The notes under the pieces are model-generated. The model was not told the origin of the DNA. It ran no database searches and worked only from the letters and a program-made list of their open reading frames with translations. DNA of 64,000 nt from Nitrospirota bacterium (GTDB lineage Bacteria > Nitrospirota > Thermodesulfovibrionia > UBA6902 > DSMQ01): the NCBI GenBank assembly GCA_016208965.1, contig JACQXB010000016.1:25541-89540 (forward strand), read 5' to 3'. Positions 1,544 through 43,165 of the stretch are shown one piece after another. The position numbers were made by a program, and so were the translations under genes. Within the stretch, counting starts at the first letter, position 1, and each line of letters opens with the position of its first letter.

Positions 1544-1714
1544 AGTATAATGGCTTTTAGTGTAGTTGTCAAGTAAAAAAATAATGGTCTATACATTGAG
1601 GCTCTTGCAAAAGTCATAAAAAGAGAAGAGTTATCATTCCTGCCTGCTTGAAAGGTGAGATAAGAATTGCTGTTTCTGCTCGCTGCTTATGAGGATTTCA
1701 TTAGACACCTCTTT

Positions 1715-1860
1715 GGGATATTGTCCGCCAAATGAATCCCGTTAGAGATAAATCTCTAATCGGGATGAATTTGAATCATTGGTGGCAAAAGATGAAAACA
1801 GAAACCGTCAGACCCTACTAACCTTAGAGGTGCTTTGTGTCTAAACAATGGGTGTCATTC
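1715..1860 (+). pseudogene. IS3-family transposase C-terminal remnant with IS end
   Basis: LGYCPPNE...FESLVAKDENRNRQTLLTLEVLCV; terminal cagaccctactaa..ttagaggtgctttgtgtctaaacaatggg shared with 39757-39905. Confidence 0.65.
1737..1764. repeat. 28-nt palindrome TCCCGTTAGAGATAAATCTCTAATCGGG inserted in the IS3 remnant, flanked by ATGAA duplication
   Basis: ATGAA at 1732-1736 and 1765-1769; uninterrupted equivalent in the copy at ~39820-39860. Confidence 0.75.
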
Positions 1861-2049
1861 CAGTTTTTTTTGTTACCCTTAAATCAAGATTTGCTCTAAT
1901 TCTGCATGAAATCAAAGACATCCTCTTGGGAATCCTCTTGGAAACAAAAAATTGCCCCTGCCTTTGATAAATTCATAAAATATTTTTTCGGGAATATTTT
2001 GACAAAGTCTTTTGTAATGTATATAATATACATCATAGGAGGATAAATT

Positions 2050-13725: not shown

Positions 13726-16098
13726 ATGCAAGTTGTAGACCCCGTATGCAAGATGACTATAGAAGATAAGGATGCTGTAGGTGCATCTACATACAAAGGT
13801 GCTGCATATTATTTTTGCTCAAAATCCTGCAAAGAAGAGTTTGCTCAAAATCCTGAATCCTTTATTGGTGAAAAAATCCCCCCTCACCCCCCTTTAGCAA
13901 AGGGGGGAAGGGGGGAAATGGCTAAAGATCCCATATGCGGGATGGTTATTCCCAAAGAACGTTCCATAAAAAGAGAGAGCGGGGGCAGGTCTTATTATTT
14001 TTGCAGTGAAAATTGCGTAAGGACATTCGAATCGCCTGAAGCAGAGCTGAAGGCTATGAAGAGACGGGTTGCTATTGCTCTTACAGGCGTTCTTGCTTTA
14101 GCTGTTTTCAGGGCAGCAGTTTTTTTGGGTCTTGCAGCAGGTGCAACCGTTCTTACCTGGGTGCCAATCTCGTGGCTTCCCTGGTTCACATGGGGAGTAT
14201 GGCTTTTCATTATCACAACGCCAATAATGATATTTGGAGGTAAGGGATTTTTCATAGGTGCATACCATGCTATAAAAAAACGTGTTGCTAATATGGATCT
14301 CCTGATAGCTCTCGGGACTTCCACAGCATACATCTACAGCGCCTTCGTCGTATTCTTTCCCGGTGTGCTGCCTGTTGAGGAAAAGAATGTCTATTTTGAG
14401 GTTTCTGCAATTATTATCGCCTTTGTACTCCTTGGAAAGTATATGGAGGAAATAATCAAAAAGAGGAGTTCCGCAGCGATCAGAAAACTCCTCGATCTTA
14501 AACCCCAGACAGCGAGGGTTATAAGAAAGGGGTCAAGGGGTCAAGGGGTCGGGGGGTCAAGTGAAGAAGTTGAAATGGAAATACCAGCAGAGGCTGTTAT
14601 GGTGGATGAGATAGTTATTGTAAGGCCTGGCGAAAAGATACCGACCGATGGAATTGTTACAGAAGGGCATTCGTCTGTTGATGAGAAGATGCTGACCGGC
14701 GAGAGTGTCCCTATTGAAAAAAAGACAGGTGATAATGTAATCGGTGGGACAATCAATAAGGTCGGCTCGTTTAAATTCAGGGCTACAAGAATTGGTGCTG
14801 ATACTACATTGAGTCAGATAATTAAACTGGTGGAGGAGGCACAGGCATCATCATCGCAAATTCAGAGACTTGCTGACAAGGTTGCATCCTTTTTTGTCCC
14901 GGCTGTTATCGGTGTTGCCTTCTTATCAGCTATTGTGTGGGTACTAACTGGAAACTCCACAATGGCGCTTTTATCATTTGTTGCCGTGCTGATAATCGCA
15001 TGCCCTTGTGCACTCGGCATAGCGACTCCGGCTGCATTGATGGTTGGTGTCGGCAAAGGCGCGGAACTGGGAATACTGATAAGGGGAGCTGAATACCTTG
15101 AAAGGGCGGAGAAGTTAAAAGCGGTGGTATTCGACAAAACAGGCACCCTCACGAAGGGAGAACCGGAAGTGACGGAAATAATAGCAGTCAGCAGTCAGCA
15201 GTCAGCAGTCAGCGAAAAGGACGTGCTTAAGCTTGCAGCCATGGCTGAGAAAGGTTCTGAACATCCTCTGGCTGAGGCAATTTTAAAAAGGGCGAATATG
15301 GCTGGACTTGCAATACCCGATGCAGAGGAATTTGAGGCTATTCCAGGGCATGGTGTTAAAGTAAAATCTCAGGGAAGAGAAATCCTAATCGGCAACAGAA
15401 GGCTTATGAAAGACATGGGTATTGATATTCAGGATAAAGAGTCTGTGATCTCCGGGCTTGAAGAAAAGGGCAATACCGTAATGCTTGTTGCCATCAATCC
15501 CCCTCACCCCCCTTTGATAAAGGGGGGTGAGGGGGGATTATTGGGATTTATTGCAGTGGCAGATACTTTAAAAGAGCATGCTAAAGATGTGGTTCAAGGA
15601 CTTAAAAATGAAAGGGTTGAGGTTGTTATGCTTACAGGCGACAATGAAAGGACAGCAAGGGCAATTGGTTCAAGGATAGGGATTGAAAAAATCATATCTA
15701 ATGTCCTCCCCGGAGATAAGGCAAAAGTGATAAAAGAGCTTCAGGCTGAAGGAAAAGTTGTGGCAATGGTGGGAGATGGTATAAATGATTCCCCGGCACT
15801 TGCTCAGGCAGACATCGGGATAGCCATAGGAAGCGGCTCTGATGTGGCAAAAGAGACAGGAGGCATTATACTGGTAAGGGACGACCTGAGAGATGTAATC
15901 AAGGGCATAAAGCTCAGCAGGGTAACAATGCAAAAGATTAAACAGAACCTTTTTTGGGCATTTTTTTATAATACTGTTGCCATTCCCGTGGCTGCCTTTG
16001 GTCTGTTAAATCCAATTATTGCTGCTGCTGCGATGGCATTAAGTTCTCTCTCTGTTGTCAGCAACTCGGCACTTTTAAAAAGGGTAAAGATTGAGTGA
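13726..16098 (+). CDS. copA: Cu-type P1B ATPase with two N-terminal YHS domains
   Basis: [21 protein letters not shown] and [61 protein letters not shown]. Confidence 0.95.
13874..13920. repeat. Family A palindrome between the two YHS domains of copA
   Basis: cccccctcacccccctttagcaaaggggggaaggggggaaa; encodes [15 protein letters not shown]. Confidence 0.85.
14531..14562. repeat. Octamer array (GGTCAAGG)n in frame in copA
   Basis: ggtcaagg ggtcaagg ggtcgggg ggtcaagt. Confidence 0.75.
15184..15211. repeat. Heptamer array (GCAGTCA)x4 in frame in copA
   Basis: Encodes [11 protein letters not shown]. Confidence 0.9.
15497..15540. repeat. Family A palindrome in the copA ATP-binding region
   Basis: ccccctcacccccctttgataaaggggggtgagggggga; encodes [14 protein letters not shown]. 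Confidence 0.9.
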
Positions 16099-16120
16099 AT
16101 ATATCAAATCTTATGAACTA

Positions 16121-16264
16121 TTAAGGGTCTCAAAATTGAATGGACATTAATCTGAAAATCTCCCCTCGCCCCTCTTTGCCAAAGAGGGGAAATCCCTCCC
16201 TTTAGCAAAGGGAGGTTAGGAGGGATTTTATAAATTAATGTATTCACTATTATGAGACTGTTAA
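16121..16264. mobile_element. ~144-bp MITE copy 1 (two internal C/G palindromes)
   Basis: TTAAGGGTCTCAAAATTGAATGGACATT...TATTATGAGACTGTTAA; second copy at 32517. Confidence 0.8.
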
Positions 16265-16304
16265 TAAGTAACTTAGGTAGAAAATAAATACAGGGAGGTT
16301 TCAA

Positions 16305-16844: not shown

Positions 16845-18989
16845 ATGGCTTTCTGGCATGATATAGAACGGGATTATAAGGCTATCTTTGAGAGAGACCC
16901 GGCAGTAAGAAACGGGCTTGAAATTATCTTTGCATATCCCGGATTCCATGCGATATTTCTTCACAGGATTAACCATTTCCTTTGGAACATAGGCATTCCT
17001 GTTATCCCAAGATTTCTATCACACATAGGAAGATTTCTCACAGGCATTGAGATACATCCGTGTGCAAAGATTGGTGCGGGTTTTTTCATTGACCACGGCA
17101 TGGGTGTAGTTATAGGAGAGACATCTGAGATAGGGGAAAACGCAACTCTTTATCAGGGAGTTACACTTGGAGGCACGGGCAAGGAAAAAGGTAAGAGGCA
17201 CCCTACGCTTGGCAATAATGTAGTTGTTGGGACAGGGGCAAAGATCCTCGGTGCGATAACAATCGGAGATAATGTTGCAATAGGCGCTAATTCAGTAGTG
17301 CTTAAATCCATTCCCGGAAACTCAATTGTTGTAGGTGTTCCGGGAAGGGTAACAAAAAAGAGAATAATAAGGATGACAACAGAGGAAGGTTTGATAGAGG
17401 TGATGGATCATTTCCCTGACCCTTTATTAGAGAGGCTTGAAGAGCTTGAAACTAAGGTCACTGAGCTTGAAAAGGATATTGAGGCAATGGAAAAACAAAA
17501 AGAGAGAGATAAGGTAATGAGGGTATACAACACGCTTACTGGAAAGAAGGAGGAGTTTATTTCCATTAATCCCGGCAAGGTAGGCATGTATGTATGCGGG
17601 ATAACTGCTTATGATGTATGTCATCTGGGGCATGCAAGAAGCGCTATAGTTTTTGATGTCATGAAGAGATATATGAGATACAGCGGATTTGAGGTAAGGC
17701 ATGTCAGAAACATTACTGACATTGACGACAAAATAATTAAAAGGGCAGCACAGGAAGGTGTCTCTACTGTGGATATTGCAAAGAAATATACAGAAGAATA
17801 CTACAGAGATATGGACAGACTCGGGGTAAGCAGGGCTGATGTTGAACCAAAGGCAACCGAGCATATCCCTGAGATGATTGAGATTATAAAAGGGCTGATT
17901 GAGAGTGGATATGCATACAGTGTTCATGGGGATGTATATTTCAGGGTCAGCAGGTTTTCTGATTACGGGAAACTTTCAAGAAGAAGCCTTGATGACATGA
18001 TGGCAGGGGCAAGGGTTGAGGTGGATGAGAAAAAGGAGAATCCGCTGGATTTTGCATTGTGGAAGGCGTCAAAACCGGGTGAGCCGTGGTGGGACAGCCC
18101 ATGGGGAAAAGGAAGACCGGGCTGGCATATAGAATGCACTGCAATGTCGATGAAGTATATGAAGTATATGGGAGAGAGTTTTGATATTCATGGAGGAGGC
18201 GCGGATTTAATCTTTCCGCATCATGAAAATGAAATTGCGCAGTCAGAGGCATTTACAGGCAGGCCTTTTGTAAGATACTGGCTTCACAATGGGTTTATTA
18301 CTGTTGACAAGGAAAAGATGTCCAAGTCTTTGGGGAATTTCTTCACGATTAAGGAGATTCTTGATAAGTATGACCCTGAGGTTGTGAGATACTTTCTACT
18401 TTCAACCCATTACAGAAGCCCGATAGAGTTTTCTGATGCGCAGTTAAGTGAATCTGAGGTCTCTATTGATAGATACTATTCAACTGTATTAAGGGTCAAT
18501 GACTTCTTAAATGAGCCATCAGCCATCAGCCATCAGCCATCAGCCATTAAAGTGGTTGAAGAGTTTGAAAAACAAATATCCTCTTTGAAAGAAAAATTTA
18601 TGGATGCAATGGATGATGATTTTAATACTGCACTTGCACTTGGACATATTTTTGAACTCATAAGGGAAGCAAATAAATTTCTTGATGCCAAGCCAAGAGG
18701 GCAGAAGGCAGGGGAGCTTGTTGCAAAATCAAAAGAAGTTTTAACTGAATTAGGCAATATTCTTAATATATTTAACAGGACGCCGCATGAATGGTATATC
18801 TCGCTTATGAAAGTAAAAAATGTTGGTTTTACCGAAGGGGATATTCTTAATGAAATAACCAAGAGGCACGGGGCAAGACAGAAGAAAGACTGGGCATTGG
18901 CAGATAAGATAAGAAATGAACTGGAAGAAAAAGGTATTATCCTTGAAGATAAAAAGGATACAACAAAATGGAAAATTAAGGTTGGTTGA
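16845..18989 (+). CDS. cysE-cysS: Serine O-acetyltransferase / cysteinyl-tRNA synthetase fused ORF (714 aa)
   Basis: CysE: FFIDHGMGVVIGETSEIGENATLYQGVTLGGTG; CysS from Met at 17517: MRVYNTLTGKKEEF..MYVCGITAYDVCHLGHARS, KMSKSLGNF. Confidence 0.85.
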   Translation: MAFWHDIERDYKAIFERDPAVRNGLEIIFAYPGFHAIFLHRINHFLWNIGIPVIPRFLSHIGRFLTGIEIHPCAKIGAGFFIDHGMGVVIGETSEIGENATLYQGVTLGGTGKEKGKRHPTLGNNVVVGTGAKILGAITIGDNVAIGANSVVLKSIPGNSIVVGVPGRVTKKRIIRMTTEEGLIEVMDHFPDPLLERLEELETKVTELEKDIEAMEKQKERDKVMRVYNTLTGKKEEFISINPGKVGMYVCGITAYDVCHLGHARSAIVFDVMKRYMRYSGFEVRHVRNITDIDDKIIKRAAQEGVSTVDIAKKYTEEYYRDMDRLGVSRADVEPKATEHIPEMIEIIKGLIESGYAYSVHGDVYFRVSRFSDYGKLSRRSLDDMMAGARVEVDEKKENPLDFALWKASKPGEPWWDSPWGKGRPGWHIECTAMSMKYMKYMGESFDIHGGGADLIFPHHENEIAQSEAFTGRPFVRYWLHNGFITVDKEKMSKSLGNFFTIKEILDKYDPEVVRYFLLSTHYRSPIEFSDAQLSESEVSIDRYYSTVLRVNDFLNEPSAISHQPSAIKVVEEFEKQISSLKEKFMDAMDDDFNTALALGHIFELIREANKFLDAKPRGQKAGELVAKSKEVLTELGNILNIFNRTPHEWYISLMKVKNVGFTEGDILNEITKRHGARQKKDWALADKIRNELEEKGIILEDKKDTTKWKIKVG
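18514..18548. repeat. Heptamer array (AGCCATC)x5 in frame in cysS
   Basis: Encodes EPSAISHQPSAIK. Confidence 0.95.
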
Positions 18990-19729
18990 TGGAGATAGCA
19001 GAAGCTCTGAGGCTCGTTCAAGGGAAAATTGTAAACTCTGCACTCAGGGCTGGAAGGAATCCCGCTGAAATAAAAATAATTGCGGTTACTAAAACTGTAA
19101 GTATTGAACATATTCAGGAGGCAATAGACGCAGGATTAAGGATATTTGGGGAAAACAGGGTTCAGGAAGCTCAAAAAAAAGTTACAAGTTGCAAGTTGCA
19201 AGTTGCAAGTAAAGACAAAGACTCGTTACTCGTTACTCGTTACTCGTTACCTAAGATAGAATGGCATTTAATAGGAAATCTACAGAGAAACAAGGCAAAG
19301 TATGCGGTTCAGTTATTTGACCTTATTCATACCATTGATTCCATCGGAATTGCAGAGGAAGTCAATAAACAGGCTGAGAAGATAGGCAAAACCCAAAGGG
19401 TTCTTGTTCAGGTTAAATTATCTAAAGAGGAGACAAAACACGGGGTTTCAGAGGAGGATTTAATGCCCTTGCTTGAAATGATAAGTAATTTGAGAAACTT
19501 AAAACTTGAAGGGCTGATGACCATGCCTCCTTTTTTTGATGACCCGGAAAAAGCAAGACTGTATTTCAGGAGATTAAGAGAATTAAGGGATAATATTAAC
19601 AAGTTACGAGTTACGAGTTACGAGTTACGAGACTTATCTATGGGTATGTCCAATGACTTTGAAGTTGCAATAGAAGAAGGGGCAACTATGGTAAGAGTCG
19701 GGACGGCGATATTTGGGGTGAGAAGATAA
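18986..19729 (+). CDS. yggS: YggS family PLP-binding protein
   Basis: IIAVTKTVSIEHIQEAIDAGLRIFGENRVQEAQ, EWHLIGNLQRNKAKY; likely ATG at 18989 overlapping the cysS stop. Confidence 0.93.
   Translation: MMEIAEALRLVQGKIVNSALRAGRNPAEIKIIAVTKTVSIEHIQEAIDAGLRIFGENRVQEAQKKVTSCKLQVASKDKDSLLVTRYSLPKIEWHLIGNLQRNKAKYAVQLFDLIHTIDSIGIAEEVNKQAEKIGKTQRVLVQVKLSKEETKHGVSEEDLMPLLEMISNLRNLKLEGLMTMPPFFDDPEKARLYFRRLRELRDNINKLRVTSYELRDLSMGMSNDFEVAIEEGATMVRVGTAIFGVRR
19182..19249. repeat. Bipartite heptamer element (TTGCAAG)n-spacer-(CTCGTTA)4 in yggS
   Basis: ttacaag ttgcaag x3, taaagacaaaga, ctcgtta x4. Confidence 0.95.
19597..19631. repeat. Heptamer array TAACAAG-(TTACGAG)4 in yggS
   Basis: Direct reading. 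Confidence 0.95.
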
Positions 19730-19867
19730 GTGTTCTATGGCTTATAGAAAAAGCGGTTGTTTTGATATAGAATAATAACCTAAAAGATGCTTGAGTAAAT
19801 TATCTCGACAGCACTAATTAAGCAACCCCCGTTAGAAAGGACGGGGCTTTCTAACGGGGTAAATTAA

Positions 19868-22800
19868 ATGCTAAAGTCCTACGTTAAAAAAATATTTGAA
19901 GTTGCGAAAAGAGGCGATGCAAGGGAAGAAAGTTATTACTCCTGTCTTGAAGAACTTTTAAATGATTATGCTGATTCTATCAACAAAAAACAGATTTATA
20001 TTACTACCCTTCCTAAAAAGACTGATGCAGGAAATCCTGATTTTAGAATATGGGATGGGAAACAACACATTATTGGATATATTGAGGCTAAATCACTACA
20101 TGAAGAAGACTTAACCCATATAGAGCATTCTGAACAGCTTGAAAGATATTTAGACATTTTCCCTAATCTTATACTCACAAATTTTTTTGAATTCCGTCTT
20201 TATCGTGATGGCAATTTAATTGATAAAATTCGGATTGCAAGACCATATGTGATTCACAAGCTCGGTACAGTCCCTCCTGTTGAAAAAGAAAAGGAATTTT
20301 TTGCTCTTCTCGAAAAATTCTTTTCTTTTTCTTTACCCAAAACCTATTCAGCAAAGACCCTTGCAGTGGAGCTTGCAAAAAGGACAAGGTTTTTAAAAGA
20401 ACAGGTCATTATTGAAGAATTAAAAACAGAAGAGACTCCCCCCTTTAATTCCCCCCTTACCAATGGGGGACTGAGGGGGGTGTATGGTTTTTATGAAGCA
20501 TTCAAACAATACCTCATAAGTGGCCTTTCAAAAGAAGATTTTGCAGACCTTTATTCTCAGACTATCACATACGGGCTTTTTGCTGCCCGAACACGCTCGG
20601 AAAACAGCTTTAACAGAAAACTCGCATATGACAGGATTCCAAGGACGATTGGAATATTAAGGGATGTTTTCAGATTTATTTCTCTTGGTGAATTACCTCA
20701 ACAGATGGAATGGATAATTGACGATATTTCAGAAGTTTTAGCAGTTACGGATGTTTATAAAATACTTGATGAGTATTTTCATAAACATAAAGGTAAAGAC
20801 CCGATTGTACATTTCTATGAAACATTTCTTGCTGAATATGACCCTAAGACAAGAGAAAAAAGAGGCGTCTATTATACCCCTGAACCAGTAGTTTCTTATA
20901 TTGTTCGTTCTTTGCACCATATCTTAAAAGAGCATTTTAATAGAGCAGATGGCTTTGCAAATGATACAGTCACAGTATTAGACCCTGCTGCAGGAACACT
21001 CACTTTTTTAGCTGAAGCTGCTAAGTTGGCAGTGAACGAATTCTCTTTAAAATATGGCGAAGGAGCAAAAGAAAATTTCATTAAAGAACAAATCCTTAAA
21101 AACTTTTACGCCTTTGAATTAATGATGGCGCCGTATGCAATAGGGCATTTGAAAATATCCTTTCTCCTTGAAGAACTTGGTTACAAACTTCATGAAGATG
21201 ATAGATTCAAACTCTACCTGACCAATACCTTGGAAATGGAAGAACTTGCGCAGACAGAACTTCCCGGAATGGCTTCTCTTTCTGAAGAGTCACATCTTGC
21301 AGGCAAAGTCAAAAAAGAACAGCCTATTTTAGTGATACTCGGAAATCCACCCTATTCTGTAAGCTCTGCAAACAAATCTGACTTCATTGAGAAAGAGATG
21401 GAACTATATAAAAAAGATGTCCGTATTGAGAAAAATATCCAGCCTCTTTCAGATGATTACATTAAGTTTATTCGCTTTGCGCACTGGAAAATAGATAAAG
21501 CAGGTAAGGGTATTATCGGAATGATTACCAACAATTCTTATCTTTCAGGATTAATTCATCGCGGAATGCGTAAAAGTTTGCTTGAAAGTTTCAATGAAAT
21601 TTATATCTTAAATCTTCATGGGAATAGCCGAATTGGAGAGAAATGTCCTGATGGAAGTAAAGACGAAAATGTCTTTGATATTCAGCAAGGAGTTTCAATC
21701 GCATTGTTTGTTAAGAACGACTCTGTCATTGCGAGGAGCAGAGCGACGAAGCAATCTCATGAGATTGCCACGCCTTCGGCTCGCAATGACATTACTACTT
21801 GCAAAGTTTTCTATCAGGATGTTTACGGACTGAGGAAAAAGAAATACGCATACTTGAATAAATATTCTACTAACTCAACAAAGTGGATAGAGTTAACACC
21901 GACCGATACTTATTATTTCTTTGTAAAGAAAGATTTTTCTCTACAAGCAAAGTATGATAAGTTTTTGTCTATTCAGGAAATATTTGTTCAATCCTCCAGT
22001 GGTGTAAAAACCCATCGTGACCATTTCATAGTAGGATTTACAAAAGAAGAAGTTAAACAGCGAATTAGAACATTTACCAGTAATTTACCAGATGAAATAG
22101 TTACTCAAGGATTGAACTTAAAAGATACGAGAGATTGGAAGGTAAAAACCGCAAGGGAGAGTCTAAAGAAAATTGATTGGGGAGAATATGTTAGACCATA
22201 CTCGTATCGCCCTTTTGATAAAAGATATATTTGTTATCTATCAAACCTGATTGATAGAGGTTGTGACAGATGGGATTTGATGAAGAACTTTTTTAAGGAG
22301 AATATTGGGTTAGCAACAACAAGAAGGATGCCAGAAATATTCGGTGTCTCCACTTTTGTATGCAATTATGTTGGAGACATACATATAATCGGAGACCAAA
22401 ACTACTTTTTCCCTCTTTACCTCTACAAAACAAAAGAAGATAATCCTTCAAAGAAACGCTCTTTTAGCACTTTAATGATGCTCTTTGAGCCGGAAGCAGA
22501 TTATTTTGTAAAAAAGCCTAATCTATCTCCAGCATTTGTAGAAAAATTAACCAAAGAGTTTAAGAAAACACCAACCCCCGAACAAATCTTCTTTTACATT
22601 TATGCCATTCTCTACTCAAATATTTACCGTATAAAATATGCTGAATTCTTAAAGATAGATTTTCCAAGGATTCCTTTTACAAAAGATTATAAATTGTTCA
22701 AGAAAATGGGTGATTACGGCGAAAGACTTGTTGATTTACATCTGCTAAAATCATCAGCGCTTGATTCACCTGTTGCAAAGCTGCAGGGCAAGGGTGATAA

Positions 22801-23131
22801 TAAGATTGAAAAAGTGTGGCTGTCATTGCGAGGCAAAGCCAAAGCAATCTCAAAAGACGAGATTCTTCGCTACGCTCAGAATGACAAATTAGTGATTTAC
22901 ATCAACCAGAATCAGTATTTTGAAGGGCTTTCAAATGATGTCTGGGGATATCAAATTGGCGGTTATCAGGTTTGTGACAAATGGCTAAAAGATAGGAAAG
23001 GAAAAAGATTATCACTTGAGGATATAAAATATTACTGCAAGATTGTTACTGCTTTGAAGAAAACAATTGAAATCCAAAAAGCAATTGATAATGTCTATCC
23101 GGAAGTAGAAAAGGAGACTTTATCTTTATGA
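19868..23131 (+). CDS. Single-polypeptide restriction-modification enzyme (type IIG/ISP-like)
   Basis: N-terminal PDFRIWDGKQHIIGYIEAKS (PD-ExK-like); VLDPAAGTLTFLAEA; VILGNPPYS (N6-MTase motif IV); no helicase motifs noticed. Confidence 0.88.
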   Translation: MLKSYVKKIFEVAKRGDAREESYYSCLEELLNDYADSINKKQIYITTLPKKTDAGNPDFRIWDGKQHIIGYIEAKSLHEEDLTHIEHSEQLERYLDIFPNLILTNFFEFRLYRDGNLIDKIRIARPYVIHKLGTVPPVEKEKEFFALLEKFFSFSLPKTYSAKTLAVELAKRTRFLKEQVIIEELKTEETPPFNSPLTNGGLRGVYGFYEAFKQYLISGLSKEDFADLYSQTITYGLFAARTRSENSFNRKLAYDRIPRTIGILRDVFRFISLGELPQQMEWIIDDISEVLAVTDVYKILDEYFHKHKGKDPIVHFYETFLAEYDPKTREKRGVYYTPEPVVSYIVRSLHHILKEHFNRADGFANDTVTVLDPAAGTLTFLAEAAKLAVNEFSLKYGEGAKENFIKEQILKNFYAFELMMAPYAIGHLKISFLLEELGYKLHEDDRFKLYLTNTLEMEELAQTELPGMASLSEESHLAGKVKKEQPILVILGNPPYSVSSANKSDFIEKEMELYKKDVRIEKNIQPLSDDYIKFIRFAHWKIDKAGKGIIGMITNNSYLSGLIHRGMRKSLLESFNEIYILNLHGNSRIGEKCPDGSKDENVFDIQQGVSIALFVKNDSVIARSRATKQSHEIATPSARNDITTCKVFYQDVYGLRKKKYAYLNKYSTNSTKWIELTPTDTYYFFVKKDFSLQAKYDKFLSIQEIFVQSSSGVKTHRDHFIVGFTKEEVKQRIRTFTSNLPDEIVTQGLNLKDTRDWKVKTARESLKKIDWGEYVRPYSYRPFDKRYICYLSNLIDRGCDRWDLMKNFFKENIGLATTRRMPEIFGVSTFVCNYVGDIHIIGDQNYFFPLYLYKTKEDNPSKKRSFSTLMMLFEPEADYFVKKPNLSPAFVEKLTKEFKKTPTPEQIFFYIYAILYSNIYRIKYAEFLKIDFPRIPFTKDYKLFKKMGDYGERLVDLHLLKSSALDSPVAKLQGKGDNKIEKVWLSLRGKAKAISKDEILRYAQNDKLVIYINQNQYFEGLSNDVWGYQIGGYQVCDKWLKDRKGKRLSLEDIKYYCKIVTALKKTIEIQKAIDNVYPEVEKETLSL
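21721..21795. repeat. GTCATTGCGAG-type repeat in frame in the R-M gene
   Basis: tctgtcattgcgaggagcagagcgacgaagcaatctcatgagattgccacgccttcggctcgcaatgacatt; encodes VIARSRATKQSHEIATPSARNDI. Confidence 0.9.
22804..22886. repeat. GTCATTGCGAG/CAGAATGAC-type repeat in frame in the R-M gene
   Basis: Encodes LSLRGKAKAISKDEILRYAQNDK. Confidence 0.9.
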
Positions 23132-32362: not shown

Positions 32363-32510
32363 GAGTAAAATCCGAAATTCAAAGCACTAAATTCCAAACA
32401 AATCCTAATGTTCAAAATCCAAATATTCCAGACATTGCTTTGAATTTATGTTATTTGAGTTTTGATATTGTTTAGAATTTAGAATTTTGGGTTTAGAGCT
32501 TAAATTTATA
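32363..32510. repeat. AAATCC/GGATTT-type heptad inverted repeat
   Basis: aaatccgaaattcaaagcactaaattccaaacaaatcc ... ttgtttagaatttagaattttgggttt. Confidence 0.7.
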
Positions 32511-32516
32511 CATTAA

Positions 32517-32658
32517 TAAGGGTCTCAAAATTGAATGGACATTGACCTGAAAATCTCCCCTCGCCCCTCTTTACCAAAGAGGGGAAATCCCTCCCTCTAG
32601 CAAAGGGATGTTAGGAGGGATTTTATAAATCAGTATATTTACTATTATGAGACTGTTA
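32517..32658. mobile_element. ~142-bp MITE copy 2, TTAA on both sides
   Basis: TAAGGGTCTCAAAATTGAATGGACATT...TATTATGAGACTGTTA; TTAA at 32513-32516 and 32659-32662. Confidence 0.8.
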
Positions 32659-32702
32659 TTAACGTAGGACTTAGACAAACTTAAACTTTGGGAGGATGAG
32701 AT

Positions 32703-33521
32703 TTGAATATAGTAGTTTGCATAAAGCAGGTTCCTGATACAGCAGAGGTAAGGATTAACCCTGAAACAAATACGCTTATCAGGAAAGGAGTGCCAAGCAT
32801 AATTAATCCTTATGACCTTCATGCACTTGAGGCAGGACTTGAGATAAGAGATAAACTCGGTGGAAAGGTAACCGTCCTTACTATGGGACCGCCACAGGCA
32901 GAAAACTCCCTAAGAGATGCGATATCAATGGGAGCTGACGAGGCAGTTCTTCTTACTGACAGGGCATTTGCTGGCTCCGACACACTGGCAACATCTTATA
33001 CACTTTCCAAGGCAATTGAAAAGATTGGTGCAGATATAATCTTCTGTGGCAAACAAGCAATAGATGGAGACACAGCACAGGTTGGCCCTGAGATAGCTGA
33101 ATTTCTTGGTATTCCTCATATTGCTTATGTGAAAAAAATAGAAGTGGTAAACCCCGTTAGAAAGACCCCCTTTTCTGACGGGGTAAAGGATGGTTATATC
33201 AGAGTCCACAGGCTTATGGATGAAGGATATGATATTGTGGAATCATCGATTCCTGTTCTGCTTACTGTTGTTAAGGAACTGAATCAGCCACGACTGCCGT
33301 CTCTTAAGGGGAAAATGGCTGCAAAGAAGGCTGGGATAAAAAAGATGGGGCATTCTGAGATATCTGCTGATGAGAATAGACTGGGACTGAAAGGCTCACC
33401 TACACAAGTTAAAAATATCTTTGCACCAAAGATAAAGTCAGACAGAATAATGCTTGCAGGTTCATCTGAAGAACAAGTGAGCAAGCTAATAAAAGAGTTA
33501 AGGAAAATTCGAATGCAATAG
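32703..33521 (+). CDS. etfB: Electron transfer flavoprotein beta subunit
   Basis: MNIVVCIKQVPDTAEVRINPETNTLIR, GKQAIDGDTAQVGPEIAEFLGIPH. Confidence 0.95.
   Translation: MNIVVCIKQVPDTAEVRINPETNTLIRKGVPSIINPYDLHALEAGLEIRDKLGGKVTVLTMGPPQAENSLRDAISMGADEAVLLTDRAFAGSDTLATSYTLSKAIEKIGADIIFCGKQAIDGDTAQVGPEIAEFLGIPHIAYVKKIEVVNPVRKTPFSDGVKDGYIRVHRLMDEGYDIVESSIPVLLTVVKELNQPRLPSLKGKMAAKKAGIKKMGHSEISADENRLGLKGSPTQVKNIFAPKIKSDRIMLAGSSEEQVSKLIKELRKIRMQ
33148..33188. repeat. CCCCGTTAG..CTGACGGG palindrome in frame in etfB, flanked by GTAAA duplication
   Basis: gtaaaccccgttagaaagacccccttttctgacggggtaaa; encodes NPVRKTPFSDGVKD. Confidence 0.75.
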
Positions 33522-37605: not shown

Positions 37606-39756
37606 CTACTTCCCAATCAGCACGACAGTGCTTCTCGCATTGGCAAAATAGCAGTCTGAAGGTTCTATCAATATCTCCCTGCCCGCATAGAGAAAGTCAT
37701 CTCCGCTTTTAAGGCTTGTATCAATTGCCCTATACCACTTCATTCCGTTATTAAGTATGGGTATCTTGATTGATTGCGGATTAAAATCAGCATTCAGGAT
37801 AATAAACAAATGATAATCGCCCACATCTGATTTTTCTTCGCCGCCGTCAAGCTGATAGCAGATTGTGCGAAGCTCAGGGTCATCCCATGACGGTTTATTC
37901 AGGTCTTTACCGAACCATGAGATATCAGGAATATTATCCGCATCCAGATCTTTTCCAAGAAAGAATTTCCTCCTCTGAAGTATCGTATATTTCTTCGTGA
38001 ATGTAATAACCTTCTTAAAGAAATCAAGGATGTCAGCATTTTTATTTAAATAATCCCAGTTGAACCAACTTATATCATTGTCCTGACAGTATGCATTGTT
38101 ATTGCCATTCTGAGTCCTCATGAATTCATCTCCTCCCAAAATCATAGGTGTGCCTGATGAAAAAAGAAGATGACATACATAATTTTTTACGAGCTGTCTC
38201 CTTAAACTGATGATATTGCCATTTTCGGTCTCTCCTTCAACCCCGCAGTTCCATGAATTGTTGTCATTTGTGCCGTCACAGTTGTTTTCGAGATTTGCTT
38301 CATTGTGTTTGTAATTGTATGAGACAAGGTCATACAGCGTAAATCCGTCATGGCAGGTTATAAAATTTATGCTGTTGTATGCAGACCTGCCGTCGTCTCC
38401 GTAGAGGTCGGCAGAACCTGTTAATCTTGCTCCCATATCCCTTACCTGTCCGGCGTCACCCTTCCCGAATTTCCTCATCGTATCCCTGAACCTCCCGTTC
38501 CACTCGCACCAGTCAACAGGAAAATTTCCGACTTGATATGTTCCGAGATCCCAGGGCTCGGCAATCAATTTGATTCTGTTTAAGACAGGGTCCTGTGATA
38601 TTGCATCGAAGAAAGATGCTGATTTCTGGAACATTCCTTCTTCACGGCCAAGCACTGATGCAAGATCAAACCTGAAACCGTCAACATGCATCTTTTCAAC
38701 CCAGTACCTCAGAGAATCCATGACAAACCTTATCACATGGGTATTCGAGAGATTAAAACTATTTCCGCAGCCGGTGTAATTCATATAATAGCGGTAAGGC
38801 TCATGGGGCGTTCCGGTTAGGCAATAGTAAGTCGGGTTATCTATGCCCTTAAAACTTATTGTCGGGCCAAGCTCATTTCCTTCGCCTGTGTGGTTATAAA
38901 CAACATCCATTATCACCTCGATGCCTGCCTTGTGAAGTTCGCGCACGAGTGTCTTGAATTCGTTGACCTGACAGCCCGGGAAACTATTTGTGCCGAAAGA
39001 TGATTCAGGGGCAAAAAAACCGATTGTATTATATCCCCAGTAATTGGTTAATCCCCTGTCAAGAAGAAAGTCATCAACGTAAAACTCCTGAAGAGGAAGG
39101 AATTCAACGGCATTTATACCAAGGTCTTTCAGGTATGGGATTTTTTCTATAAATCCGGAATATGTGCCGGGGTTTTTAACAAGGGACGACCTGTGAGCTG
39201 TAAACCCCTTCAAATGCACTTCATAAATAATCAATTTTTCAAGCGGAATGCCAGGAGAAGTGTCACCCTGCCAGTCAAAACTGTTATCCACTATAACTGC
39301 CTTGGGTACTATACGGGTATTATCCCGCATGTCTAAAGAGAGGTCTTTATATGGAGAGTTCGGATCATATGGCAAAAGCAGGTTATCAATATCCCTGGTC
39401 TTCCCTGTCAATGCCTTCGCATAGGGATCTATCAGGAGCTTGCTTTCATTAAACCTGAACCCGTAGGCAGGATTGTAATCGCCTCTGATCTTATATCCAT
39501 AAAATTTCCCGTGCCCGAGTCCATGAACAAATGTATGCCATACATACTTTGTGCGGGTTTCAAGCCTTATAATATCTGTCGGCTCTTTATCAGGCCTGTC
39601 GAAGAGAAGAAGAAACACTTCACTTGCGTGTTGAGAATAGATTGCGAAATTGACACCACTGTCGCATAAGGTTGCGCCAAGCGGAAAATGTTTACCGGAA
39701 GAAATTTCTTTATCTGTCTTCGGAATCAATCTTGATTCCATTGGAATGACCCCCAT
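37606..39756 (-). CDS. glgX: Glycogen debranching enzyme / isoamylase GlgX
   Basis: FPLGATLCDSGVNFAIYSQHASEV, VYNHTGEGNELGPTISFKGIDNPTYY, DGFRFDLASVLGRE, GDEFMRTQNGNNNAYCQDNDISWFNW. Confidence 0.95.
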   Translation of the reverse strand: MGVIPMESRLIPKTDKEISSGKHFPLGATLCDSGVNFAIYSQHASEVFLLLFDRPDKEPTDIIRLETRTKYVWHTFVHGLGHGKFYGYKIRGDYNPAYGFRFNESKLLIDPYAKALTGKTRDIDNLLLPYDPNSPYKDLSLDMRDNTRIVPKAVIVDNSFDWQGDTSPGIPLEKLIIYEVHLKGFTAHRSSLVKNPGTYSGFIEKIPYLKDLGINAVEFLPLQEFYVDDFLLDRGLTNYWGYNTIGFFAPESSFGTNSFPGCQVNEFKTLVRELHKAGIEVIMDVVYNHTGEGNELGPTISFKGIDNPTYYCLTGTPHEPYRYYMNYTGCGNSFNLSNTHVIRFVMDSLRYWVEKMHVDGFRFDLASVLGREEGMFQKSASFFDAISQDPVLNRIKLIAEPWDLGTYQVGNFPVDWCEWNGRFRDTMRKFGKGDAGQVRDMGARLTGSADLYGDDGRSAYNSINFITCHDGFTLYDLVSYNYKHNEANLENNCDGTNDNNSWNCGVEGETENGNIISLRRQLVKNYVCHLLFSSGTPMILGGDEFMRTQNGNNNAYCQDNDISWFNWDYLNKNADILDFFKKVITFTKKYTILQRRKFFLGKDLDADNIPDISWFGKDLNKPSWDDPELRTICYQLDGGEEKSDVGDYHLFIILNADFNPQSIKIPILNNGMKWYRAIDTSLKSGDDFLYAGREILIEPSDCYFANARSTVVLIGK

Positions 39757-39905
39757 TGTTTAGACACAAAGCACCTCTAATGTTAGTAGGGTCTGAGTTG
39801 TGTTATTTTCTTTCCTTGCCACCAGTGATTCATATTCATTCGGTGAACAATACCCCAACGCTGAATGCAGCCTTTTCTCATTATACACTGCCTCGATAAA
39901 ATAAG
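39757..39905 (-). pseudogene. IS3-family transposase C-terminal remnant (uninterrupted copy)
   Basis: Minus strand VPYFIEAVYNEKRLHSALGYCSPNEYESLVARKENNTTQTLLTLEVLCV*. Confidence 0.75.
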
Positions 39906-42967: not shown

Positions 42968-43165
42968 TACATGAGAGGCTTTTGCAAAAGTCGTCATTCC
43001 CGTGCAAACGGGAATCCAGAAATTTTTGCAACATATTAAAAAGACTGGATTCCCACTTTCGTGGGAATGACAAACTCTTCTCTTTTTATGACTTTTGCAA
43101 GAGCCTCATGATTTAAATTTTTTTATATCGTGCATCTTGTATCATGAATCTTGTATCTCGTATTA
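42959..43165. repeat. Heptamer inverted repeat (ATTCATG ATACATG / CATGAAT CTTGTAT) interrupted by a MITE
   Basis: Left gattcatgatacatgag, right tgcatcttgtatcatgaatcttgtatctcgtat. Confidence 0.75.
42975..43107. mobile_element. 133-bp MITE, TIR GAGGCTYTTGCAAAAGTC, ATGA on both sides, GTCATTCC palindrome inside
   Basis: gaggcttttgcaaaagtc...gacttttgcaagagcctc; right end equals reverse complement of 1598-1632 over 35 nt. Confidence 0.85.

Follow-up and report, generated by a model that had tools for sequence, protein, structure and literature searches.

MITEs (Correia/NEMIS, ERIC, RUP and others) are non-autonomous sequences that have terminal inverted repeats and a target duplication, and some of them form in-frame fusions (PMC2229807). 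The classical bacterial representatives are about 100-200 bp long and are bound to one host group or to a partner IS (PMC2229807). RPEs measure 105-146 bp, are confined to Rickettsia and have their target duplication marked with a question mark (PMC2229807). Protein-coding palindromes of Rickettsia have been known since 2000. The cyanobacterial SDRs (Elhai et al. 2008) are approximately 21-27 nt in length.

We have analyzed a palindrome of 27 nt in a stretch of 64,000 nucleotides of Nitrospirota DNA (the whole of which is referred to here as the window), together with the family to which this palindrome belongs. We consider it very likely, with a probability of about 0.86, that the family is a very small non-autonomous palindromic element that would be mobilised in trans and that duplicates 4-6 bp of its target. 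The features of the window are listed in Table 1.

The insertion and its empty sister site

The segment between 1726 and 1782 reads CGCCAA-ATGAAT-CCCGTTAGAGATAAATCTCTAATCGGG-ATGAAT-TTGAATCATTGG. The original prediction, made from the sequence alone, described here a 28-nt palindrome inserted with a 5-bp ATGAA duplication into the remnant of an IS3 transposase, a second remnant of the same IS preserving the empty site. The insertion, the duplication and the empty site all held. The palindrome was corrected to 27 nt, or 28 nt with the T of its outer T:A pair included, and the repeats as printed are the 6-nt ATGAAT; mechanistically the duplication may be 4, 5 or 6 nt, since the outer T:A bases may belong either to the element or to the target. 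A length of exactly 5 bp is unproven. The IS3 label is weakly backed, since the Pfam rve_2 match (19.6 bits, E 0.001) lies under the curated cut-off of 22.

Between the anchors GG[A/G]TATTGT and GGTGGCA, the alignment gives 72 nt for the filled remnant and 39 nt for the empty one. The difference is exactly 33 nt, the sum of the 27-nt palindrome and one 6-nt ATGAAT, and therefore the palindrome and the duplication are both real. A caveat to this comparison is that the empty remnant itself contains AATGAATATGAATC, a near-tandem of the hexamer. Just two copies of the IS remnant were found in the genome. The predicted DNA hairpin has a folding energy of -13.1 kcal/mol, versus -4.1 for shuffled sequences (z -6). 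The phase in which the IS remnant reads through the element is the one that contains a stop; the insertion likely took place where an in-phase stop was harmless, in DNA that was probably dead already. A little upstream of the remnant, at 1597-1632, lies the sequence TGAGGCTCTTGCAAAAGTCATAAAAAGAGAAGAGTT, with a perfect 36-nt inverted copy at 43073-43108, which could be the end of another mobile element. Two small ORFs at about 2050-2697 resemble, by eye only, a ribbon-helix-helix / PIN-domain toxin-antitoxin pair.

Table 1. Coordinates of the features discussed, as positions within the window.
Feature	Position	Strand	Remarks
Palindromic element CCCGTTAGAGATAAATCTCTAATCGGG	1738..1764	.	27 nt, GAGAT subfamily, one unpaired A
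Left target-duplication copy ATGAAT	1732..1737	.	not duplicated in the empty sister remnant
Right target-duplication copy ATGAAT	1765..1770	.	read from sequence
3' IS remnant (IS3-like transposase C-terminus), host of the insertion	1693..1862	+	85% identical, over 98 nt, to the empty remnant
Second remnant of the same IS, no insertion (natural empty site)	39742..39894	-	ATGAAT at 39839-39834; codes EAVYNEKRLHSALGYCSPNEYESLVARKENNTTQTLLTLEVLCV; weak Pfam rve_2
Family member between ORFs 18986-19729 and 19868-23131	19828..19858	.	31 nt; clear direct repeat absent
Electron transfer flavoprotein beta subunit (EtfB), carries insert VNPVRKTPFSDGV	32703..33521	+	Pfam PF01012, E 4.5e-48
Family member, in-frame in EtfB gene	33153..33182	+	30 nt; GTAAA direct repeats; solved EtfB homologues gapped 13 residues there

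The palindrome family, its flanks and its host genes

Members of the family share the ends CCCGTTAGA[A/G]A...T[T/C]TCTAACGGG, constant inverted arms of 11-12 nt that enclose variable cores. Hairpin lengths range between 25 and 133 nt, 27 nt being the commonest, and composite copies made of several hairpins also exist; the smallest form may consist of two abutting arms. A search of the source genome (1.67 Mb in 50 contigs) with CCCGTTAGARAT, allowing one mismatch, returned 101 matches against 31 for the reversed control, and most of the CCCGTTAGARAT matches pair as inverted arms around variable cores. With relaxed arms, changes on both sides that preserve pairing were seen at 17 positions, versus 3.9 in shuffled sets. 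The subfamily CCCGNTTAGAGATAAATCTCTAACGGG, to which the insertion in the IS remnant belongs, has four copies in the genome, each with an extra base beside CCCG. The window also holds other repeats: a 46-nt C-rich family (TCCCCCCTCACCCCCCTTT...) present at 13871-13916 and in eight other places, nine copies in all and some of them inverted, and a 157-nt repeat at 16111-16267 and 32506-32662 (91% identity).

The exact-arm pattern was found in 30 of 396 Nitrospirota genomes, and its reversed control in none of the 396. Among public genome contigs it occurs in at least 117 stretches. The taxa listed are Omnitrophota, many Patescibacteria lineages, Nitrospirota, deltaproteobacterial groups, Planctomycetota, Elusimicrobia and Cloacimonadota; single contigs labelled Aenigmatarchaeota and Clostridia occur as well and are possibly misbinned. 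All 80 public records listed are metagenome-assembled (MAGs), so that short-read assembly might blur some copies. In phage and plasmid collections, matches were at chance level only. The highest count, 58 exact copies, was obtained for an Omnitrophica UBA1562 genome of 1.4 Mb, whose cores fall into related subfamilies, as would be expected from copying within the genome.

The original prediction would have been refuted had other copies lacked duplications. Each copy's left flank was therefore compared with its own right flank, and the expectation was obtained by random re-pairing of flanks. The idea survived, direct repeats being enriched in three sets of copies. In the source genome 17 of 37 copies have a perfect 5-bp direct repeat (6.5 after shuffling; none of 5000 shuffles was as high). 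For public genomes the corresponding figure is 71 of 153 (11.1 expected, with a maximum of 24 in 2000 shuffles), and 93 of these 153 have a direct repeat of at least 4 bp. The third set comprised 41 copies, of which 37 were new, from a pair of Omnitrophota genomes, and gave 37 repeats of at least 4 bp (7.3 expected) and 25 of at least 5 bp (4.4 expected). Counting against our reading, about 40% of the exact-arm public copies lack a perfect 4-bp repeat. Inverted flanks are scarcer than expected in the source genome (2 versus 10.3 for the same 37 copies) and are also depleted among the 153 public copies, which rules out the possibility that the flanks are simply part of the palindrome. The letters of the repeats vary between sites, and the repeats therefore derive from the target, for which GTTTAC/GTAAAC is the favoured sequence.

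The duplication is 4-6 bp long, and its exact length remains unfixed. Among the 93 public copies with a 4-bp match, the outer bases match on neither side in 22, on one in 54 and on both in 17. In nearly all copies the two outer stem bases are complementary (C:G in 118 and T:A in 21 of the 153); this pair correlates with the neighbouring base, so the boundary of the element cannot be fixed to the base.

Each insertion adds the length of the stem plus 6 nt. Considering copies with enough flank, an ORF spans 35 of the 76 for which this added length is divisible by three, versus 1 of 62 otherwise; the same frame filter was seen in the Omnitrophota set (14 of 27 versus 0 of 12). Of 32 in-gene copies examined, 25 read PVRN..ISNGV and 7 read PLE..FLTG; none used the third phase, which contains TAG. 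Thus the insertion is precise, with a short direct repeat, and copies within genes survive only in-frame. It is possible that they are translated as short inserts, because the added length is divisible by three and the reading phase avoids the TAG of the arms. The host genes include those for EtfB, IF-2, PNPase, Pol I, Ppx, RACo, 6-phosphogluconolactonase and radical SAM enzymes, and peptides such as NPVRN..ISNGV are added to EtfB (in the window), PNPase, IF-2, Pol I, Ppx and 6PGL. Solved homologues of PNPase, Ppx and EtfB have gaps of 11-13 residues at the insert site. The 6PGL insert is present in two congeneric genomes, and five homologues from the same order lack 13 residues at that place.

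Beyond the IS remnant, a pair of adjacent pilin genes at a Phycisphaerae locus (L092) provides another natural empty site. The empty protein reads RRGFTLVELL and the filled one RRGFTPLETKISDGASKRFLTGFTLVELL; at the DNA level, GGCTTTACGTTGG in the empty gene corresponds to GGCTTTAC-element-GTTTACGTTAG in the filled one. TTTAC flanks the insert at both ends and occurs a single time in the empty gene. Here the prepilin signal motif GFTLVE is split as GFTPLETKISDGASKRFLTGFTLVE, and the GFT codons contain the preferred target TTTAC. At another locus (L170), in one genome, several element-derived peptides occur in adjacent cell-wall and cell-division genes (RsmH, FtsI-like and MurE-like ORFs), for example LNPVRDNG..KISNGI in RsmH and the N-terminus MNPVRH.. 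of the FtsI-like ORF. The Pol I genes of two Omnitrophota genomes (L245 and L272) carry a 51-nt element at the same site; the arms and about 12 nt of flank per side are identical, the cores differ and the surrounding coding DNA is 61% identical. This pattern could reflect selection acting on the arms, gene conversion or more than one insertion at the site.

Mobilisation and rival explanations

Mobilisation in trans is inferred, as it was in the original prediction, and the fetched loci and the clustered ORFs of neighbouring genes yielded no enzyme with matching termini. A recombinase supplied in trans would recognise both ends or the folded hairpin, a staggered cut of 4-5 bp would be made at the target, and repair of the gaps would yield the target duplication. 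Clustering of the ORFs from 147 loci for a recurrent neighbour gene revealed no transposase among the clusters inspected. No autonomous copy, in the form of arms 0.2-5 kb apart, was detected in the genomes G308 and G402 or in the match list of the source genome, although these genomes are incomplete and the absence is not final; the exact arms in G308 and G402 either have a partner within about 130 bp or are solitary. Long-range arm pairs with matching 4-mers in the fetched loci were rejected as autonomous copies, being either composites of several hairpins or pairs that enclose ordinary genes.

A bolder reading is that many phyla without cultivated members (Nitrospirota, Omnitrophota, Patescibacteria, Planctomycetota and others) share, through horizontal transfer, a single unknown mobility system. 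The hairpins that it inserts would lengthen a site by as little as about 33 bp, counting the target copy, and would still be adding in-frame peptides to essential proteins; such elements would rank with the smallest transposable elements that duplicate their target. The odds for this reading fall a little short of favourable.

The strongest rival, although a very unlikely one, is a REP/REPIN-type element moved as a single-stranded hairpin by a RAYT or an IS200/IS605-like Y1 transposase. Small palindromes and composite copies would fit this view. IS608 targets TTAC, which the preferred left flank TTTAC recalls. In addition, Y1_Tnp was present in 15 of 15 positive and 11 of 16 negative Nitrospirota genomes tested, but this association is weak, and positive genomes may just hold more mobile DNA. 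Y1_Tnp occurs at three places in the source genome, and family arms were not found beside any of these three genes. Moreover, on either side of the element the flanking repeats differ from one site to another, and the Y1 single-stranded hairpin mechanism is not known to make target duplications; Y1 is therefore a rival and not the favourite.

The remaining rivals are all but excluded. According to the first, the ATGAA(T) repeat is a coincidence and the palindrome an ordinary hairpin, such as a terminator or a product of local template switching. In its favour are the near-tandem already present in the empty remnant and the frequency of hairpins in intergenic DNA. Against it are the filled site, longer by exactly the expected 33 nt, the recurrence of the same ends both in the genome, at over three times the control count, and in many phyla, and the flank statistics, in which direct repeats far exceed the shuffles. 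The second holds that bypassing ribosomes take off and land at the repeats, which would then not be target duplications, as happens at mitochondrial byp elements, which are hairpins of similar size inside genes with matching flanks; however, in-gene copies are stop-free multiples of three, which bypassing does not need, and 4-bp direct repeats are common outside ORFs (71 of 121) as well as inside (22 of 32). Finally, artefacts of metagenome assembly or reagent sequence might be suspected from the uniformly metagenomic origin of the listed records, but the copies come from many independent projects, duplicate different targets precisely, obey a strict frame filter that an artefact could not yield and, for 6PGL, are vertically common to two related genomes.

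Comparison with known systems

Our preferred reading is a trans-mobilised palindrome with a target duplication, and the same ends recur in very distant phyla. The mode of insertion of the Rickettsia palindromes was unclear; the present family offers a clean signature that makes the mechanism testable: its 11-nt ends are constant, a GTTTAC-like target is duplicated over 4-6 bp, natural empty sites exist and the frame filter is strict. As a caution, recurring NPVRN..ISNGV or FTPLE..FLTG peptides in metagenome proteins are insertions rather than conserved domains. No relevant paper on the DNA motif or the peptides was found in the open-access literature searched; most subscription papers lay outside the search, and novelty is thus unproven.

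With respect to MITEs, the family has the terminal inverted repeats (constant arms of 11-12 nt) and the target duplication (4-6 bp, not fixed), while an autonomous relative with the same ends was not found in the fetched loci, the source-genome match list or the exact arms of G308 and G402. It further differs from classical MITEs in that it may consist of no more than two abutting arms and in that no partner IS was found. REP/REPIN sequences with RAYT are imperfect palindromes of 20-40 nt, often composite and thought to be mobilised in trans, as is the family; however, the family arms CCCGTTAGAAA lack, by inspection, the GTAG/CGTC tag, the copies have a target duplication and intragenic copies are common. 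The combination of tag and linked RAYT gene that defines that system is not met, given the absence of arms near the Y1_Tnp genes of the source genome. PARCELs are likewise palindromic coding sequences spread horizontally over distant taxa (PMC2996958), but they are tandem 25-residue modules in surface proteins, whereas family members are single precise insertions.

SDRs resemble the family as very small mobile repeats that insert into other sequences, although they have been reported from cyanobacteria only. RPEs and the protein-coding palindromes of Wolbachia and Methanocaldococcus jannaschii lie, like the family, both between and inside genes; within conserved proteins they are in-frame, and the phase that is read is open (PMC10969869, PMC2229807, PMC2996958), so that the family satisfies the RPE-like definition of a palindrome in-frame in conserved protein genes. 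By size and host it does not satisfy that of RPEs proper (105-146 bp, Rickettsia host): its commonest form has 27 nt and no Rickettsia are among the listed records. The family also differs from RPEs in its clear 4-6 bp duplication, its constant ends with a variable core and its presence in many phyla. By analogy, then, it would act both like RPEs, as in-frame palindromes in proteins, and like MITEs and SDRs, as a small mobile repeat.
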